From Gammaproteobacteria bacterium (GTDB lineage Bacteria > Pseudomonadota > Gammaproteobacteria > Steroidobacterales > PWYM01), in assembly GCA_020832005.1 (NCBI GenBank), contig JAFIFN010000031.1:1-33676 (forward strand): DNA of 33,676 bases, read 5' to 3'. Both the position numbers and the translations under genes were made by a program. Below the pieces are notes generated by a model. The model searched no databases. It was not told where the DNA came from and worked only from the letters and a program-made list of their open reading frames with translations. Shown in pieces: positions 147 through 24,033 of the stretch (position 1 is its first letter; each line of letters begins with the position of its first letter).

Positions 147-1355
147 ATGGAAGGGGCGGATGATGTGACCACACCACCGACGATGATTGCAGCGGTACCG
201 CCGGGGCGGCAGCTGAGTCTTGTCGCGATCATTGCGTCGATCAGCGTGGTGGGGGTGACCTTTGGCATCACCACGCCGCTGTTGTCCATTCTGCTCGAGC
301 AGATGGGTGCCTCGCGCACGCTGATCGGCTTCAACGCATCGATGCCGGCGGTGGCCGCGATCGGCCTGGCGCCGGTGCTGCCGCGGCTGATCGCCGTGAT
401 GGGGCAGCGGCTGTTCATGGCCCTGTCTCTGGGCGGTGTGCTGGCCACGCTGCTGGCCTTTCCCATGTGGCCTTCGATTCCGGCGTGGTTTCTGATCCGC
501 TTCCTGATGGGTGTCGCGGCCACAGGCCTGTTCATCGTCAGCGAGACCTGGATCAACCAGCTGGCCACAGAGGCCAACCGTGGCCGGGTGATTGCGCTGT
601 ATTCCACCGTATTGTCCCTGGGTCTGGTGATCGGCGCGCTGATTCTGCCGCTCACCGGCGTGGACGGCTGGCCGCCATTTCTTGCCGGTGCGGCGATGAC
701 GGCGCTGGCCGGTGTGCCGTTGTTGTTCGCGCGCGGCGATGGCTCGGTGATGGCGGCCCACGATACGCGCGGCGTGCTGCGCTACGTGCGTGAAGCACCC
801 GATGCCATCGGTGCGGCGCTGCTGATGGGTGTGCTGTACTTCGGGCTGTTCAGCCTGTTGCCGCTGTACGGCCTGGCGCTTGATTTCGATACGCCGCAGG
901 CTGCGCGCATGGTCGCCATTGCCGGCAGCGGCCTGGTGGTCTGCCCGCTGGTGGTGGGCTGGCTGGCCGATCGCATGGACCGGGCGCAGCTGCTGCGCGG
1001 ACTGGTGCTGGTGATGGTGCTGGCGGCGGCGACGCTGCCCTGGGCGATGCTGCACACCTGGCCGCGCTCGGCGCTGCTGTTCCTGATCGGTGGTGGCGTG
1101 GTGGGGGTGTACACGCTGGGGCTGACGCTGCTGGGTCAGCGCTTCCAGGGCGGCCGGCTGGCGGCGGCCAACGGTGCGTTCGTGTTGATGTTCGGTGTCG
1201 GCGAGATGCTCGGGCCACCGTTCATGGGCGCGTTCATGGACCTCGTACCGCCGCACGGTTTCGCCTGGTCGATGGTGTGCGTGTGCGGCGCGTATTATGT
1301 GTTCCTGAGGGTGCGTGCACTGCAGACACCGCCACGATCAGGAGCGAACGCGTGA
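147..1355 (+). CDS. MFS transporter (YcaD-like major facilitator)
   Basis: ORF 84..1355; ~12 hydrophobic segments; start probably at the internal ATG near 147 or 180 (MIAAVPPGRQLSLVAIIASISVVGVTFGITTPLLSILLEQMGAS...). Confidence 0.85.
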   Translation: MEGADDVTTPPTMIAAVPPGRQLSLVAIIASISVVGVTFGITTPLLSILLEQMGASRTLIGFNASMPAVAAIGLAPVLPRLIAVMGQRLFMALSLGGVLATLLAFPMWPSIPAWFLIRFLMGVAATGLFIVSETWINQLATEANRGRVIALYSTVLSLGLVIGALILPLTGVDGWPPFLAGAAMTALAGVPLLFARGDGSVMAAHDTRGVLRYVREAPDAIGAALLMGVLYFGLFSLLPLYGLALDFDTPQAARMVAIAGSGLVVCPLVVGWLADRMDRAQLLRGLVLVMVLAAATLPWAMLHTWPRSALLFLIGGGVVGVYTLGLTLLGQRFQGGRLAAANGAFVLMFGVGEMLGPPFMGAFMDLVPPHGFAWSMVCVCGAYYVFLRVRALQTPPRSGANA

Positions 1356-1912
1356 GGGGACGGCCACATGGCAACTGTTACTGGGTACGTCCCGATACAC
1401 TGCTGGCGGGCGAGTACCCGTCCGCGGCGGACGAGAACGCCGCCCGGGTGCGCCTGGGCCGTGGGGTGGCCCCCGGCGGCCGGCTGCTCGACGCCGGCGT
1501 CGGCAGCTTCATCGATCTGACCGAAAGCCACGAACTGCCGCCCTACCTGCCGATGCTGCAGGCCGAGGCCGAACTGCGTGGCCTGATGCCGCGCTACCGG
1601 CGCATGTCGATCCGCGATCGCGACGTGCCCGGCGAGGCTGCACACATGCAGGCGATTCTCGATCATGTGGACGCGGAACTGGCCGCAGAGCAGCGTATCT
1701 ATCTGCACTGCTGGGGCGGCGTCGGGCGCACCGGCACCGTCGTGGGTTGCTGGCTGGTGCGTCACGGGGTCGAAGGTGAGGAGGCGCTGCGGCGCCTGGC
1801 GCAATGGTGGAAAGACGTCGAAAAGTCCTGGCGCCATGAACGCACGCCCGAGACCGATGCCCAGCATGCCTACGTGTTGGGGTGGGAAAAACGCGGGCAG
1901 CGCGAACCTTGA
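1352..1912 (+). CDS. Dual-specificity/protein-tyrosine phosphatase family protein
   Basis: CWGGVGRTGTVVG matches the CX5R P-loop (HC-x5-R(T/S)G); GTG start at 1352 overlaps the TGA stop of the MFS gene (GTGA). Confidence 0.85.
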   Translation: MRGRPHGNCYWVRPDTLLAGEYPSAADENAARVRLGRGVAPGGRLLDAGVGSFIDLTESHELPPYLPMLQAEAELRGLMPRYRRMSIRDRDVPGEAAHMQAILDHVDAELAAEQRIYLHCWGGVGRTGTVVGCWLVRHGVEGEEALRRLAQWWKDVEKSWRHERTPETDAQHAYVLGWEKRGQREP

Positions 1913-1917
1913 GAGGA

Positions 1918-2391
1918 TCAGGCCGCGTCTTTTTTTCTGACGATCAGGTCGACATCGCAATCCAGTATATGCAGAAGCGTCACGAGTTGCTTCATGGACT
2001 TGCTGGTATTCGTTGGATCGAGCAATCGATACAGCTGAGGCACTGATGTCTTGAGGCGACTGGCCAGTTGACGTCTGCTTAGCTCGCTCCCTTCAAGCCT
2101 CTTCTGGGCTTCGATGGACAATCTGTAGGTCAGCAGGTCAGCAAGATACTTCGGGTCTTCGTTGTACTCCAACACCTGCTCGATGTGAACAGAGCCTTCC
2201 TTGCCAGACCTCAGAGCATACGTGAACGCTTCATTGCCGAGCTCCTTGTCGACGAATAAATCCTCAATAGGATCATCCGCGCTCGGCCTGGGATCAGCCT
2301 TGGAAAACGGAAACGAAAATTCGGCGCCCGCTCGCGTAACGACGGAAAACTCACTCTTCCGAGTGTTGGCAGAAATACTCCGGATCTTCAT
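1918..2391 (-). CDS. XRE-like helix-turn-helix protein with an N-terminal uncharacterised domain
   Basis: C-terminal LSRRQLASRLKTSVPQLYRLLDPTNTSKSMKQLVTLLHILDCDVDL reads as an HTH; lower GC than its surroundings; 13 bp downstream of the metallopeptidase gene on the same strand. Confidence 0.7.
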   Translation of the reverse strand: MKIRSISANTRKSEFSVVTRAGAEFSFPFSKADPRPSADDPIEDLFVDKELGNEAFTYALRSGKEGSVHIEQVLEYNEDPKYLADLLTYRLSIEAQKRLEGSELSRRQLASRLKTSVPQLYRLLDPTNTSKSMKQLVTLLHILDCDVDLIVRKKDAA

Positions 2392-10300: not shown

Positions 10301-10648
10301 TCGGCCTCTGACGGCGATATCTTCCCATGGAAGTTCCGCAAGGCCGGTCTTGGGCCGCTGATCGGCAAGCGCACCTGGGGTGGCATCATCGGCATCACCA
10401 ATCGCGGACCGCTGGTCGACGGCGGCGAGGTGTCTGTCCCGGAATTCGGCACCGCCGATGCCGATGGCAGCTGGGCCGTGGAGGGCGAAGGCATTGCACC
10501 TGACATCGACGTCGACAATGATCCGGTCTCCGAGATGCAGGGCCGCGATCTGCAGCTCGAGCGCGCCATCGAGGAGGTAGTTCAACGCATGCGTACGCAA
10601 CCCGCAGCCTTGCCGGCCCGGCCGGCCGATCCGGTGAAAACACCATGA
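7352..10648 (+). CDS. Exported tricorn protease homologue (S41 family, beta-propeller + PDZ + C-terminal peptidase core)
   Basis: Signal peptide; repeated SPDG propeller motifs; TSASDGDIFPWKFRKAGLGPLIGKRTWGGIIG tricorn-type catalytic region. Confidence 0.9.
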   Translation: MPSVLSARRASLVLALTAVLFSCIAQAEETLLLRFPTLHGEQLVFSHGGDLWRSPASGGTAVRLTAHPGLELFPRFSPDGTRIAFTAQYDGDEQVYVMPAGGGEPQRLTWYPAMGPLPDRWGYDNQVYGWTPDGEGVLFRSLRDTHNVGASRLYIAPVAGGMPEALPMTRAGGGALSPDGRRIVYSPLFRDFRTWKRYEGGWAQQLYMLNLDGSQAQRITDHPRSHRDPMWLPSGVYFVSDRDGTLNIYRYDPDSGETTQITQHDEWDVRWPSADGGQRIVYELGGRLRILDVVSGEDRAVSITVPSDGVARRPARISVSDRIQEAVPAPDGKRVAIVARGEVFSVPAEHGLTRNLTRSSDAHEREVTWSPKGDRLAFISDASGEEELWVVEQAGGQPRQVTRDSDTRYFRPRFSPDGERIAMVNARNQLLVVDVASGRITEVARDPIENNRDHAWSPDGRWLAFSMSQPSGFSRLHLWERERGRLHALGSGMFHEHTPAWDPDGGLLYFLAMREFQPQISRIEWDFATNRDTGIFAYALRRDVDNPFAPRSDEVGDKAEGADNDDEPSARGSRSRGSDTGNTALRVELDGLDQRVIRVPVEADNYSQLTATGTHLVYGRSDPFYYGRDPATRPAVMLYDLEKREARTRLEDVAAFAVSADGKQLLARQNNSWKLFPLDNGDGKTVSLDGLMMDRVPAEEWAQIFDEVWRRFRDHFYVANMHGYDWEAIGQRYRALLPHVAHRSDLNYIIGEMIGELNVSHAYKSGGDLARPSRPTVSLPGARFELDERAGRYRIASIFAGQNAEARYRSPLTEVGVDVSVGDYVLAINTHPLSAQDNPYRLLHAARGAPVELRVSARADGRDARTVRFEPVESERNLMYLAWVTERYRQVSEATDGRVGYLHVPDMGADGIREFIKWFYPQIRREGLIIDVRANGGGNVSQMLINRLNRELLGVTHTRNRQQPSTYPNMVFTGPMVTLINETSASDGDIFPWKFRKAGLGPLIGKRTWGGIIGITNRGPLVDGGEVSVPEFGTADADGSWAVEGEGIAPDIDVDNDPVSEMQGRDLQLERAIEEVVQRMRTQPAALPARPADPVKTP

Positions 10649-11589
10649 CGCGCGCAGGGTCGAGGCCATCGGCTCCGGCGGTCAGTCGCCGTGCCGTGCT
10701 GGCGGCCGGGGCGCTGGCCGCAGGCGTCCTGCCACTGGGCGTGCTGCGCGCCGGAGACTCGATGCGCCGCCGGGTCATACCGGCCAGCGGCGAGGCCCTG
10801 CCGGTGATCGGTGTGGGCACGGCGAGAACCTTTGATGTCGGTGATGGCGATACGCAGCGCATGGCAGCGTTGCGCGAGGTGCTCGCAGCCCTGCTGGACG
10901 GCGATGCCAGCGTGATCGATACCTCGCCGATGTATGGCGAAGCCGAACGCGTCATCGGCGAGCTTGCGCGCGAGCTGCCCGGTCGCGAGCGCATGTTCCT
11001 GGCGACCAAGGTCTGGACCCGCGGACGTGCGCAGGGCATTGAGCAGATGCGCCGCTCGCTGGAACTGCTGGGCGTCGATGCCGTTGACCTGATGCAGATC
11101 CACAATCTCGTGGACTGGCGCACGCACCTGGCGACGCTGCGTGCGCAGCAGGAAGAAGGTGTGTTTCGCTATATCGGTATCTCGCACTACCGCGTCGATG
11201 CGTTTTCGCAGGTCGCCGCGGTGCTGCGCGACGAGCCGTTGGATTTCCTGCAGATCAACCACTCGCTGATGACGCCGGAGGCCGAGCGCGAACTGCTGCC
11301 GCTGGCGGCCGATCGCGGCGTGGCGGTGATCATCAATCGACCCTTCGAGAACGGCGCGCTGTTCGCCCGCGTGCGTGATCATGAGGTGCCGGCCTGGGCC
11401 GTGGAAGCCGGCATGCCGACCTGGGGTCAGTACTTCCTGAAATTCATCCTCGCCCATCCGGCCGTTACCTGCGTGATCCCGGCCACACGGCGGCCCGAGC
11501 ACATGCTCGACAATCTGCAGGCAGGCTTCGGCGAGTTGCCTGACCGGACGATGCGTGAGCGTATGCGCGAGCATGTCGTGACGCTGTAG
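10645..11589 (+). CDS. Aldo/keto reductase with Tat-like signal
   Basis: [19 protein letters not shown] twin-Arg N-terminus; [17 protein letters not shown] and [13 protein letters not shown] motifs; ATGA overlap with the tricorn gene. Confidence 0.85.
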
Positions 11590-11600
11590 CGGCGCGTGCG

Positions 11601-11683
11601 GGCGTCACCTGCGGGAGGTCTTTGGCGGAATGGCTCCCTTCGGTCCGCTTTATTTCCGCCAAAGACCTCCCGCAGGCGACGCC
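11601..11683 (+). repeat. 83-bp intergenic palindromic repeat, copy 1 (30-bp arms, 23-bp spacer)
   Basis: GGCGTCACCTGCGGGAGGTCTTTGGCGGAA ... TTCCGCCAAAGACCTCCCGCAGGCGACGCC, 29/30 complementary; near-identical to the copy at 22235-22317. Confidence 0.95.
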
Positions 11684-11765
11684 AGCCGGGGCTCAAGCAA
11701 GTGAGTGTCTCGGTTTACCGGGGTTATCCTGCAGCGCGCGCAGCGGAGATAATCCCGGCATTCCG

Positions 11766-12521
<756 letters not shown>

Positions 12522-14890: not shown

Positions 14891-16081
14891 ATGAGCAGAA
14901 ACAAACTCCTGTTGCTGGGCTTGCTCACCGCGGCGATTATCGCGCTGCTGGTGATCGGCTTCGCACCGCAACCGGTACTCGTCGACCAGGCCCGCGTGGT
15001 GCGCGGCGCGATGGAGGTGATCATCGAGGAGGAAGGCCGCACGCGCGTGCGGGATCGCTACCAGGTCTCCGCGCCTGTGGGCGGGTATCTGCGGCGTATC
15101 GTCATCGAGCCCGGCGACCCGGTCACCGAAGACCAGGTGCTGGCGCTGGTCGCGCCGCTGCGACCCGAGGCGCTGGATCCGCGTCGGCGGGCGCAGGCGC
15201 AGGCAGCAGTCGCTGCCGCGCGCGCCAGCCTGCGCAGTGCCGAGAACCGCACGCGCGCGCTGGCCGCCGAGTCGACGTTCGCACAGAGTGAACTCGAACG
15301 CATGCGTCTGCTCGCCGTAGACGGCAACGTCTCACGCGCTGAACTGCAGCGTGCCGAGACGCTGGCGCGCAGTGCTGCCGAAGGCTTCGAAGAGGCAGAA
15401 GAACGCGTCGAGGTGGCGCGCCAGGAACTCAATGCCGCGCAGACGCAACTGGCCTATGCGGGCGCCGATGCCGATGACGTCGACAGTCTCGTCAGCGTGC
15501 GCTCGCCGGTCAACGGCCGGGTGCTGCGCCGTCACCGCGAGAGCGAAGGGGTGGTCGCAGGCGGCGAGTTGCTGCTGGAGGTTGCCGACACCGATGTGCT
15601 GGAGGTCGAGACCGATGTGCTGTCGGCCGATGCCGTACGCATCGCGGCAGGTCAGCCGGTACGTTTCGCGCGCTGGGGCGGGCCCGGGGAACTCGAAGGC
15701 GTGGTCCTGCGCGTGGAGCCGGCGGGTTTCACGAAGATCTCGGCGCTGGGGGTCGAGGAACAGCGCGTGTGGGTCATCAGCGAGATCACCGCACCAAGAG
15801 AGGATTGGCGCAGCCTCGGCGATGGTTTTCGCGTGGAGAGCCGGTTCGTTGTCTGGTCGGAAGACGACACGCTGGTTGCCCCGGTCAGCGCGGTGTTTCG
15901 CGAGGCTGACGGCTGGGCTGCGTTTCGTATCGAGAATGGGCGCGCACGCCTGGTGGCGGTGGAGATCGGCGAGCGGTCAGCGCTGCGGGTGCAGGTGCTC
16001 GATGGCCTTGCCGCGGGGGATGTCGTGATACCCCATCCACCGGAGCAATTGACCGACGGCAGTCGGGTCAGATCGCCCTGA
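14891..16081 (+). CDS. HlyD/MacA-type periplasmic adaptor (membrane fusion protein)
   Basis: N-terminal TM, coiled-coil AQAAVAAARASLRSAENRTRALAAE, lipoyl-like VRSPVNGRVLRRHRESEGVV; third gene of the efflux operon. Confidence 0.88.
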   Translation: MSRNKLLLLGLLTAAIIALLVIGFAPQPVLVDQARVVRGAMEVIIEEEGRTRVRDRYQVSAPVGGYLRRIVIEPGDPVTEDQVLALVAPLRPEALDPRRRAQAQAAVAAARASLRSAENRTRALAAESTFAQSELERMRLLAVDGNVSRAELQRAETLARSAAEGFEEAEERVEVARQELNAAQTQLAYAGADADDVDSLVSVRSPVNGRVLRRHRESEGVVAGGELLLEVADTDVLEVETDVLSADAVRIAAGQPVRFARWGGPGELEGVVLRVEPAGFTKISALGVEEQRVWVISEITAPREDWRSLGDGFRVESRFVVWSEDDTLVAPVSAVFREADGWAAFRIENGRARLVAVEIGERSALRVQVLDGLAAGDVVIPHPPEQLTDGSRVRSP

Positions 16082-16089
16082 GGCGTCAC
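16021..16089 (+). repeat. Direct repeat copy A (3' end of hlyD-like gene plus 8 nt downstream of its stop)
   Basis: 57/69 identical by eye to 18548-18616; encodes VVIPHPPEQLTDGSRVRSP*. Confidence 0.9.
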
Positions 16090-18294: not shown

Positions 18295-18555
18295 ATGCTG
18301 TTCACAAGGCTGGCTGTGATGATGCTGGTTGAGGAAGGGGTTCTGGACCTGCACGCCGATGTGGCGGGCTACACGCGCGAAACCGAGGTGCCCGGCTTTG
18401 AGCAGCTGACGCTCGCCCAGCTGATGAGCCACCGCCCGGGCTATGAGGATACCTATGAGCAGTTCGTGCAAGCCCGCATCCTCGACCCGCTGGGGATGGG
18501 CGCCACCACCTATAGCGAGGCAACCGCGCGCCCTGACCAGCCGCCGCTGTCGTAA
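18295..18555 (+). pseudogene. Degraded fragment of a second beta-lactamase-family serine hydrolase
   Basis: LFTRLAVMMLVEEGVLDLHADVAGYTRE...LTLAQLMSHRPGYEDTYE then directly QFVQARILDPLGMGATTYSEA; no SxxK start region, central part missing, C-terminus truncated. Confidence 0.75.
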
Positions 18556-18616
18556 TTCCGCATCCGCCGGAACATCTCACCGATGTCAGTCGGGTCAGAT
18601 GACCCTGAGGCGTCAC
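18548..18616 (+). repeat. Direct repeat copy B, relic of a hlyD-like gene 3' end
   Basis: Translates in the matching frame to VVIPHPPEHLTDVSRVR*, versus VVIPHPPEQLTDGSRVRSP* in copy A; most differences are at third codon positions. Confidence 0.85.
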
Positions 18617-19490: not shown

Positions 19491-20930
19491 TCAGCTGGCT
19501 GACGCGGCAGCCGTCGGATGTCCGTGCAAGCCCTCGAGTGTCACCAGGTCGATCCCGTCTCCGTGCGCCGGCTCGGTGACCGCCGTGCCAAAGTCATCGA
19601 CCAGGCGCTGCGCCAGTGCTGCGCGCGCAGCGGGTTCGCCATGGATCAGCCAGGTCGGCGGCGCCGGCTCGAAACTCCCATACCAGCGCAGCAGTTCGCG
19701 CTGGCCGGCATGCGCCGACATGCCACCGACGGTATGTACCTGGGCCTCCACGCGCATCGCCTCGCCATGGATGCGCACCCAGGGCTGACGCTCCACCAGC
19801 CGGCGGCCCAGCGTGCCGCGGGCCTGGAAGCCGACGATGACGATATGGCACTCCGGGCGCCAGACATTGTGCTTGAGGTGGTGGAGTACGCGACCGCCAC
19901 TGCACATGCCGCTGCCGGCGATGATGATCGCGCCCGAGCGGACATGGTTCAGGCGCATGGACTCTTCCGGTGATTTGCACAGTGTCAGATTCGGCAGCGG
20001 TGGCATGAAGCTCTTCGCCGTGGACAGCTCACGGGTCTCCTCGTCGTGGAGTTCGGAGTGGCTGATGTAGAGCTGGCTGGCCTGGATGGCCATCGGGCTG
20101 TCGAGGTAGACCTTCCACCGCTCCATGCCCCAGTCATCCCAGTGCTTGCCGAACAGGTAGAGCAGGTCCTGCGTCCGGCCCACGGCGAACGCCGGAATGA
20201 TGATATTGCCGGCATCGTGATCGGCAGAGGTCAGGATGTCCTTGAGTTCGGCCAGCGTGGCCTCGTGGCTGCGATGATCGCGATCACCGTAGGTGCTCTC
20301 CATGATCAGCGCATCGGCCTTCGTGATCGCGGCCGGATCGCGCACGATCGGCATGTCGTAGCTGCCAAGGTCACCGCTGTAGATCAACGTGCGGCGCAGC
20401 CCGTCATGCGTCAATTCCAGTTCGATCGATGCGGCGCCGAGGATGTGGCCGGCCTCGTGCAGGCGCAGGCGTACGCCCGGCAGCAGGTCTTGCCAGGCGT
20501 CGAAATCCAGGCTGCGGAACTGTCGCAGGGTATCGGCGACATCGTCTGCGCCATACAGCGGCTCGACCGGCGGCAGGCCCTTGCGTGCGCGGCGCCGGGA
20601 TTCGAGTTCGGCATCGCGGCGTGACAGCGATGCCGAATCCGGCAGCAGCACGCGGCACAGCCCGCGCGTGGCGCGATGGGTGTAGATCGGTCCGCGATAG
20701 CCGCGACGCACCAGCAGCGGCAGCCGCCCGGAGTGGTCGATGTGCGCATGCGAGAGCACGACGGCATCCAGCCGCGTCGGGTCGAAGGCAAAGTCCTGGG
20801 CATTGCGGGCTTCATCCGCACGCGAGCCCTGGATCAGCCCGCAGTCCAGCAACAGGCGCATGCCGTTGATCTCGACCAGGCAGCACGAGCCGGTGACCTC
20901 GCCGGCCGCGCCGAGAAATTCCACTTTCAA
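19491..20930 (-). CDS. MBL-fold metallo-hydrolase with beta-CASP/RMMBL-type architecture (RNA-processing nuclease-like)
   Basis: LSHAHIDHSGRLPLLVRRGYRGPIYTH, YSGDLGSYDMPIVRDP, ESTYGDRDH, MSAHAGQRELLRW motifs. Confidence 0.9.
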   Translation of the reverse strand: MKVEFLGAAGEVTGSCCLVEINGMRLLLDCGLIQGSRADEARNAQDFAFDPTRLDAVVLSHAHIDHSGRLPLLVRRGYRGPIYTHRATRGLCRVLLPDSASLSRRDAELESRRRARKGLPPVEPLYGADDVADTLRQFRSLDFDAWQDLLPGVRLRLHEAGHILGAASIELELTHDGLRRTLIYSGDLGSYDMPIVRDPAAITKADALIMESTYGDRDHRSHEATLAELKDILTSADHDAGNIIIPAFAVGRTQDLLYLFGKHWDDWGMERWKVYLDSPMAIQASQLYISHSELHDEETRELSTAKSFMPPLPNLTLCKSPEESMRLNHVRSGAIIIAGSGMCSGGRVLHHLKHNVWRPECHIVIVGFQARGTLGRRLVERQPWVRIHGEAMRVEAQVHTVGGMSAHAGQRELLRWYGSFEPAPPTWLIHGEPAARAALAQRLVDDFGTAVTEPAHGDGIDLVTLEGLHGHPTAAASAS

Positions 20931-21104
20931 GATTGCATTCCTCCCGATATGGCGTCCCGCCGCGCGTCAAGACGCTCATCGACCGCCGCGCAGATACAGT
21001 CGCCGAGTCTAGCAGCGCCGCCCCGTGATGTTGTGGACACTGCGCGTCCTGCCTGCATACACTGGCAGCAAGCGCAGCTCGCGCGATGCCACAGGACGGA
21101 TCCC

Positions 21105-22229
21105 ATGGCCAGAAACCTGCAACACGACATGCTGCCGCGCGCGGACGCCGAAGACCTGGCGCGCCAGCGCTATGTGCTGGCGCTGAAGACGCATCTCGGC
21201 CGGCGGCTGCGACCCGGCAACGCGGTGATCTGGGAGCGCGCGGTCAAGCCCGCCTTCGAGCGGGTCCACGGACATGCGCCCACCGAACGCGGCGACATCG
21301 CCGACGCCATGTACGCCCATCCCGGCTACCAGAGCTGGAGTGCGCTCAATCGCGTCGCCCAGGAGCTGATGTGGGAGTCGGTCGGCGAAGCGGTGTTCCG
21401 CGAGTCCGATCGCATGTCCGCCGAATACCGGCGCCTGCATGACAGCCGTCCCGCCGGCGGTTCGCTCGACCTCGACGAGGACTTCGAGGTGCCCAAGGCG
21501 ATCCGGCGCATAAACATCCATCTCCAGCCCGGCGGCTATGCCAGGGATGAAAGCCCGGACGATGTCATCGCAGGCGCGTTCTACGAAGCCGGCGGCGCCC
21601 TGTATTCGATGGGCCAGTCGATCGGCACGCGCGAGTCGAAGGCGCAGATCGTGCAGCGCTACCTGGCCGAGCGCTATCCCGACTTCAAGCCTGGTCGCGT
21701 GCTTGATATGGCCTGTTCGGCGGGCGCGTCGTCGGTGCCCTACGCACTGGCCTGGCCCGAGGCCGAAGTTCACGCCATCGACGTGGGTGCCGGCATGCTG
21801 CGCTACGCCCATGCCCGGGCCGAGGCGCTTGGCGCACGCGTGCATTTTCACCAGCGCGATGTCGCCAGCACGGGTTTCGAGGCCGGCAGTTTCGACCTGA
21901 TCGTCTCGCACAACGCCATGCACGAGATGTCACAGGTCACCCAGGCGGCCATGATGCGCGAGTGCTTCCGGCTGCTGGCCCCCGGCGGGGTGTGCGTGCA
22001 CCAGGACGTGCCGCTGCGCTACGAGGAACTCGACGAGTTCATGCGCTTCGAGCGAGGCTGGGACCTGAAGAACAACAACGAGCCGTTCTGGGAGGCCTAC
22101 GCCACCAACGACCCCGCGCAGATGCTCCGCGACGCCGGCTTCCCCGAAGCCGAAATCCACGTCGGCTACCTCGACCAGAGCGACGGCTCCATGAAGTGGT
22201 TCATCGCCGCAGCACGCAAACCCGGCTAA
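21105..22229 (+). CDS. Class I SAM-dependent methyltransferase
   Basis: VLDMACSAGASSVPYAL (motif I), VHAIDVGAGMLRYAH, FDLIVSHNAMHEM; start at MARNLQHDML inside ORF 20676..22229. Confidence 0.85.
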   Translation: MARNLQHDMLPRADAEDLARQRYVLALKTHLGRRLRPGNAVIWERAVKPAFERVHGHAPTERGDIADAMYAHPGYQSWSALNRVAQELMWESVGEAVFRESDRMSAEYRRLHDSRPAGGSLDLDEDFEVPKAIRRINIHLQPGGYARDESPDDVIAGAFYEAGGALYSMGQSIGTRESKAQIVQRYLAERYPDFKPGRVLDMACSAGASSVPYALAWPEAEVHAIDVGAGMLRYAHARAEALGARVHFHQRDVASTGFEAGSFDLIVSHNAMHEMSQVTQAAMMRECFRLLAPGGVCVHQDVPLRYEELDEFMRFERGWDLKNNNEPFWEAYATNDPAQMLRDAGFPEAEIHVGYLDQSDGSMKWFIAAARKPG

Positions 22230-22234
22230 GGGGG

Positions 22235-22317
22235 GGCGCCACCTGCGGGAGGTCTTCGGCGGAAATAAAGCGGACCGCAGGGAGCCATTCCGCCGAAGAC
22301 CTCCCGCAGGTGGCGCC
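22235..22317 (-). repeat. 83-bp intergenic palindromic repeat, copy 2 (perfect 30-bp arms; inverted orientation by its spacer)
   Basis: GGCGCCACCTGCGGGAGGTCTTCGGCGGAA ... TTCCGCCGAAGACCTCCCGCAGGTGGCGCC, 30/30; reverse-complemented spacer matches copy 1 at 22/23. Confidence 0.95.
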
Positions 22318-22346: not shown

Positions 22347-22766
22347 CTAACCGCGATACGTCTGCAGGTGAATGCTGGTCTCAGTGGCCGTGATCCCCCT
22401 GATCTTGCGCACCCGCTCCAGCGTCTCTGCCAGCGCCTGCAGATTGCCCACCCGCAGCTCGGCCAGCAGATCCCAGCGCCCGTTTGTATCGTGCAGCGCC
22501 TCCACACCAGGCTCACCGAGCAGCGCCCGGATCACCGCCTGCTGATGGCCTTCGACCGCGATGCTGCACCAGGCGCGGATGTCGTCGCGCATGGCATCCG
22601 GGCGCAGCCGCACCGTGTAGCCGGCGATGACACCCTCGCGTTCCAGCCGCGCCATGCGGTTGGTGATGGTGCCGCGTGCCACGCCCAGGTTTTGCGCCAG
22701 CTGCGCGATTGAGGCGCGCGCATCGTGACGCAATTGCGCGATCAGGGCCTGGTCGAGAGCGTCCAT
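22347..22766 (-). CDS. Lrp/AsnC family transcriptional regulator
   Basis: MDALDQALIAQLRHDARASIAQLAQNLGVARGTITNRMARLEREGVIAGYTVRL, classic AsnC HTH plus RAM domain. Confidence 0.93.
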   Translation of the reverse strand: MDALDQALIAQLRHDARASIAQLAQNLGVARGTITNRMARLEREGVIAGYTVRLRPDAMRDDIRAWCSIAVEGHQQAVIRALLGEPGVEALHDTNGRWDLLAELRVGNLQALAETLERVRKIRGITATETSIHLQTYRG

Positions 22767-23972: not shown

Positions 23973-24033
23973 GGCGACCGCGGCCCTCAGGCGACCGCGG
24001 CCCTCAGGCGACCGCGGCCCTCAGGCGACCGCG
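23973..24033 (+). repeat. 17-bp tandem repeat (GGCGACCGCGGCCCTCA), about 3.5 copies
   Basis: Three exact units at 23973-23989, 23990-24006, 24007-24023 followed by partial GGCGACCGCG; lies between two convergent genes. Confidence 0.95.

Follow-up and report, generated by a model that had tools for sequence, protein, structure and literature searches.

Dispersed intergenic hairpins with a conserved apical loop in a gammaproteobacterial genome and its relatives

The window, i.e., the whole stretch of 33,676 nt of contig JAFIFN010000031.1 that was analyzed (Gammaproteobacteria bacterium, assembly GCA_020832005.1), contains two 83-bp palindromes, at 11601–11683 and 22235–22317, each with 30-nt arms and a 23-nt spacer, and raises the question of whether these are terminators of neighboring genes or copies of one repeat family, and if the latter, of what kind. 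Copy 1 (11601–11683, with its core TAAAGCG...GAGCCAT read on the minus strand) has one arm of its inverted repeat at 11601–11630, on the side of an aldo/keto reductase (AKR) gene (10645–11589, plus strand, PF00248), and the other at 11654–11683, on the side of the downstream ABC transporter ATP-binding gene (11766–12521, plus strand, PF00005). Its conserved 23-nt apical core, TAAAGCGGACCGAAGGGAGCCAT, was located by pattern match on the minus strand at 11630–11652 (G000:C187:11630-11652:-). Copy 2 (22235–22317, plus strand), detected both as an inverted repeat and by genome search, has perfect 30-nt arms and carries the conserved 23-nt apical core TAAAGCGGACCGCAGGGAGCCAT at 22266–22288 (pattern match G000:C187:22266-22288:+). 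It sits between a methyltransferase-domain gene upstream (20676–22229, plus strand, PF13649) and, beyond it, a convergent Lrp/AsnC-type regulator gene (22347–22766, minus strand, PF01037 and PF13404). A repeat search returned the two copies as an 83-nt inverted pair with 93% identity; they are therefore oppositely oriented, a feature absent from the first-pass annotation of this DNA. The architecture of arms and spacer described there can be read directly from the sequence at both sites, and the spacer conservation of 22 out of 23 positions holds after reverse complementing. That annotation also described the arm differences between the copies as paired, which is true of GGCGTC/GACGCC versus GGCGCC/GGCGCC and of TCTTT/AAAGA versus TCTTC/GAAGA; one difference, however, is one-sided, because copy 1 has a single non-Watson-Crick position, A11607 versus C11677 (G.T on the opposite strand). 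Copy 1 does lie downstream of the AKR open reading frame, but it starts 11 nt beyond the end of this ORF and not directly after the stop codon.

The predicted fold of each window copy reached about −75 kcal/mol (z from −8.6 to −9.9), and no shuffled sequence was as good. Neither copy has the arrangement of an intrinsic terminator, a G+C-rich hairpin with an immediate T-tract: a terminator scan of 11000–12500 gave nothing at copy 1, and no T-tract was seen by eye beside copy 2, in agreement with the initial reading of the sequence. Rfam returned no family at gathering score, and the sub-threshold hits were mainly microRNA-type hairpins.

Rather than two terminators, the first-pass annotation had proposed a dispersed family that keeps its structure (REP/BIME-like or a small MITE), and had named as evidence against it a genome with only these two copies, or a lack of both covariation and excess 3′ placement. 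We found about 14 copies in the source assembly, comprising 11 loci that carry all or much of the element (both window copies included) and three half copies; the own-genome search thus gave 12 full, partial or half copies outside the two in the window. An 83-column alignment of eight gap-free copies has an almost invariant center. In this alignment 99.2% of the stem cells were paired, 12 of the 30 stem pairs had changed on both sides in one copy or more, a number reached in none of 500 shuffles, and sliding the partner abolished the covariation signal. Placement, described below, was strongly 3′ and convergent, and the proposal of a dispersed family was supported on each of these points. The three half copies (L012, L013 and L014, on C5 and C13) end at the hairpin apex, one of them followed by a long poly-C run, and are probably sequencing or assembly artefacts at strong hairpins. 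Because of these broken copies and of two further copies located at contig ends, the copy counts are likely too low. The element was found in none of four genomes of the same genus that were searched.

In other genomes of the order, matches extended mainly over the loop. The 23-nt core at the hairpin apex can be written as TAAAGCG-S-A-S′-CGNAG-S-GAGCCAT (search pattern TAAAGCGNANCGNNGNGAGCCAT); among 147 genomes of the order it was present in 20, with up to 53 copies per genome. The reversed pattern, used as a control, had no hits in the order genomes, and the core pattern occurred in 0 of 149 genomes of the class outside the order; plasmid and phage records that were searched had no match either. 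Named carrier records, among the matches listed, were mostly metagenome assemblies of Woeseiaceae. Two records labeled Coxiellaceae (L077 and L124) carry proper hairpins, and certain other differently labeled records do not: a hit in a viral contig (L194) and those in Vreelandella (L123) and Comamonadaceae (L093) were discarded as core matches without a hairpin. The invariant part of the element is the apical loop rather than the arms. Since the pattern itself fixes most bases, independent evidence comes from its free positions only. Across 227 copies, position 14 was A in 97%, position 13 varied, and in 217 the bases at positions 8, 10 and 16 were G,C,G or C,G,C; a GNA triloop was present in 219. 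This base pattern at positions 8, 10, 14 and 16 is what would be expected of a GNA-triloop mini-hairpin with a covarying pair 10:16. Triloops of the GNA type have unusual stability in single-stranded DNA. The isolated core folded only weakly in ViennaRNA. The linkage of positions 8 and 10 makes CGSAS′CG self-complementary around the A, and two loops might pair with each other. Recognition of a GGA loop by a CsrA-type protein was considered and dropped, as GGA is missing from one of the two common variants of the core. A literature search by sequence letters gave nothing useful.

We consider the element to be a non-coding hairpin repeat, dispersed and specific to its lineage, that is REP/BIME-like in the way it works and is identified by its apex, and assign this reading a probability of roughly 0.6. 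Judging from the sequence pattern, a putative trans-acting enzyme would recognize the apex as folded single-stranded DNA, whereby copies would spread; the arms would serve to present the apex, would be kept complementary by fold-back template switching during replication, and would sometimes be lengthened by the same process into flanking DNA. Placement after stop codons may simply mark where insertion is tolerated. Transcripts would carry the element as a long 3′ hairpin, with possible secondary consequences for how the RNA is processed or how stable it is. We advance more tentatively, as a possibility, that this is a new class of mobile repeat, in which an enzyme reads a single-stranded DNA mini-hairpin (the GNA triloop with its covarying bases) and the arms are renewed by fold-back copying; were this so, the arms would not be a fixed inheritance, and a copy could contain its own target site duplicated in inverted form.

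A functional RNA element at 3′ ends, either a terminator or an mRNA-stability or RNase III hairpin, with an RNA-binding protein reading the apex and selection maintaining the pairing, is a doubtful alternative that nevertheless accounts for several features, namely the strong covariation, the very stable fold and the placement. Among 153 element clusters, 64 lay in convergent and 9 in divergent gaps, versus 86 and 70 for other intergenic gaps at the same loci (counts based on simple ORF calling), and the median distance of the clusters to a stop codon was 32 bp; 16 clusters were inside long ORFs. However, at co-directional sites the element was found 16 times in sense and 17 times in antisense, i.e., without orientation preference relative to the gene, which together with the missing T-tract at copy 1 and the lack of an Rfam family argues against an RNA role. 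Besides, at one site shared by G036 and G140 an ordinary intrinsic-terminator sequence was seen by eye separately beside the element. Site occupancy bears on both sides. In a first comparison of homologous loci many sites were occupied in both genomes, and some orthologous sites were occupied in several, as an RNA element would predict, although these loci had been chosen for carrying the element. In an unbiased test, eight G036 sites were followed into eleven other genomes. Six of these sites had full coverage; the closest relative, G140, was occupied at five of them and the ten other genomes at 3 of 60, so that most sites were empty in other species. At three of the six sites G104 had a different hairpin with another loop. 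These G104 hairpins (sites 2, 5 and 7; L312, L335 and L347) are long, with GGGGGATGTTTCA in the arms and CGAGTTT in the loop, and perhaps represent a sister family. The occupancy test and the G104 hairpins indicate that copies are labile and that some intergenic spots are re-used. In the intergenic DNA flanking the element, G036 and G140 did not align with each other, which left no readable junction, and in the same-genus genomes synteny was too diverged for an empty-site comparison.

The covariation itself may have an origin other than selection on RNA. In 184 copies of one register, arm pairing was 85% within a copy and 37% when arms were swapped between copies; the median stem was 29 bp (199 copies), and by eye arms were alike within a genome and unlike between genomes. 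In other genomes there are often two hairpins in inverted orientation about 110–160 bp apart (29 clusters of the − + type). In G071 the outer arms of several such paired elements extend into copy-specific sequence, with identical outer arms of 31 bp in L225, 45 bp in L226 and 40 bp in L232. The 45-bp repeat of L226 takes in the last 14 bases, stop codon included, of a neighboring ORF (1183–2100, minus strand), and its inverted duplicate reappears four bases past the stop of the ORF on the opposite side. Counting outer inverted repeats of 14 bp or more with an identity of 90% or better, one was present in 18 of 156 clusters over all genomes (10 of these 20 bp or longer) and in 0 of 247 controls; some of the 18 belong to other repeat families. 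About ten copies have an inverted duplicate of their flank. Fold-back template switching at replication is known to make inverted copies and to restore pairing in existing stems (PMC8794818). In view of this process and of the inverted flank duplicates, we attribute the compensatory arm changes at least partly to copying of DNA, and they are no proof of RNA selection. The arms are probably kept alike by fold-back copying, and given these signs of it at the DNA level, the paired arm changes need not imply selection on structure.

How the element relates to known repeats was examined for the REP/BIME systems in particular. REPs are 20–40 bp long, with stems of 5–13 bp and an unpaired GTAG or CGTC tag (PMC3733652, PMC2817692). 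Like REP/BIME elements, the copies described here are dispersed extragenic palindromes, often inverted pairs of two unlike hairpins, occurring in lineage-specific sets of variable copy number and located downstream of genes and between convergent ORFs; the general description of REP/BIME elements as dispersed extragenic palindromes, mostly downstream of genes and often in inverted pairs, applies to them. Unlike the GTAG/CGTC superfamilies of REPs, the element is 83 bp long, has a median stem of 29 bp and is conserved in its 23-nt apex. Within 10 nt outside the stem of 199 copies, GTAG, GTGG and CGTC tags were seen 2–13 times per tag and side (about 5.4 expected by chance), a few per cent of copies at most, which is no enrichment. 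The middle of some GTAG-3 REPs of Enterobacteriaceae (PMC2817692, Table 1), e.g., Citrobacter TAAGCGAAGCGCCA, resembles TAAAGCG...GCGAAGCG..GCCA, a likeness noticed by eye that we treat as a lead only; GTAG-3 REPs share complex loops with GC/GC termini but differ in their short stems, GTAG tag and RAYT association. REPINs, the REP doublets mobilized by RAYTs, are likewise units of two inverted hairpins, with the difference that the element is missing from the flanks of every RAYT gene found here.

The RAYT link suggested by the first-pass annotation did not hold: RAYT genes occur in most carrier genomes, none with the core within about 1.5 kb. In a first search they were present in 10 of 15 carriers and 10 of 20 non-carriers. 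The core, with up to 4 mismatches allowed, was absent from 29 RAYT loci over about 1.5 kb on each side where the contig allows, a set from which RAYTs too divergent for both profiles could be missing. The RAYT of the source genome (L371:587-1120, G000:C179) is canonical (177 aa, 194 bits to NF047646) and the single canonical gene there, and has neither the core nor recognizable inverted REPs beside it. RAYT was rejected as the mobilizer on account of the absence of the element from RAYT flanks and of its about equal frequency in non-carriers. Near the RAYTs of G055 and G005 there are palindromes of a different type, GGGGACATTCC; TAATGGGGACATTCC-type palindromes adjoin the RAYT genes in these two genomes and occur at one further intergenic site of G055 (L210, L198, L320), and are probably the repeat served by those RAYTs. 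The search for a recurrent neighboring gene gave ordinary ones only (by eye, ABC transporter, ribosomal protein S10, UroD, a cytochrome oxidase subunit). A 375-aa ORF between two hairpins in L243 was rejected as a transposase, having no Pfam match and occurring in one genome only. At this locus (L243:1012-2680, G120:C15) the orphan ORF is flanked on both sides by direct repeats of about 30 bp, GCGGCCGGTGGTGG.G.GCCCTCTGCC, as if a cassette had been inserted into a third hairpin. No mobilizing enzyme emerged from these searches, and it is possible that a conventional transposase escaped them.

Such a transposase is the premise of the next alternative, a conventional MITE, i.e., a deletion derivative of an insertion sequence moved through recognition of its terminal inverted repeats, which we regard as unlikely. 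The bacterial MITEs NEMIS, ERIC, RUP and Bcr1 are likewise dispersed and non-coding, 70–300 bp long and capable of forming long hairpins in transcripts (PMC3733652), and the size of about 83–190 bp and dispersed copies of the present element would fit. In several own-genome copies the hairpin is also enclosed by a second, imperfect inverted repeat, CAATGGCACTTGCTCAAGCC with its partner. At copy 1 a weak match to its right half, AGCCGGGGCTCAAGCAAGTGAGTG, was seen by eye at 11684–11707 in comparison with the flanks of L004–L014; the left half is not recognizable beside the AKR stop codon, and copy 1 seems to retain the right half only. However, this outer repeat is absent from elements of other genomes, which have different outer sequences. 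MITEs are defined by terminal inverted repeats in common with a transposon, whereas the present element is variable at its ends and conserved at its center; a search of the own genome with the outer repeat alone gave no transposon, though in an assembly of 278 contigs an absent one could be missed. The two weak extra matches (L263 and L264) had nothing resembling the element. No terminal inverted repeats common to an autonomous transposon were found in these 278 contigs, and no direct target duplication was seen, there being no alignable empty site in which to read one. By these comparisons the element falls outside the tagged REP families and the RAYT-linked REPs, and its membership in the MITEs is unsupported.

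That replication errors alone created and spread the hairpins, with neither enzyme nor function, is very improbable: the inverted flank duplicates and the known ability of template switching to create and mend hairpins (PMC8794818) speak for it, but it explains neither the almost invariant 23-nt apex across many genera nor the dispersal to many sites. Template-switch (quasipalindrome) mutation at hairpins has several features in common with the element (arms copied alike, paired multi-base changes, inverted nearby DNA), but it is a mutation process and by itself accounts for neither a conserved apex nor dispersal. An assembly artefact at hairpins is scarcely credible: the half copies broken at the apex, one with a poly-C run, and the two copies at contig ends speak for it, but it can account for the half copies only and not for 227 distinct copies with paired arm changes in many independent assemblies.

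With the apex-identified dispersed repeat as the preferred reading, the identifying part of the family is the loop, whereas in REPs and MITEs it is the ends. The family provides hundreds of natural hairpins in whose arms covariation is traceable to the copying of DNA and not to selection on RNA, and is a warning for methods in which covariation counts as proof that an RNA is functional. A putative reader of folded DNA or RNA is also implied for this common, mostly uncultured group of marine bacteria.

Other repeats were observed in the same material. In L073:1339-1741 the element lies amid several copies of a REP-like repeat, GTGGGAGGCCGCCATGCGGGCGAC, so that two palindrome families are present in one intergenic region. 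The window itself contains a 69-bp direct repeat (16021–16089 and 18548–18616, 83% identical, 2.5 kb between) and, between two minus-strand ORFs at 23973–24033, a 17-bp unit, GGCGACCGCGGCCCTCA, repeated in tandem about 3.6 times.
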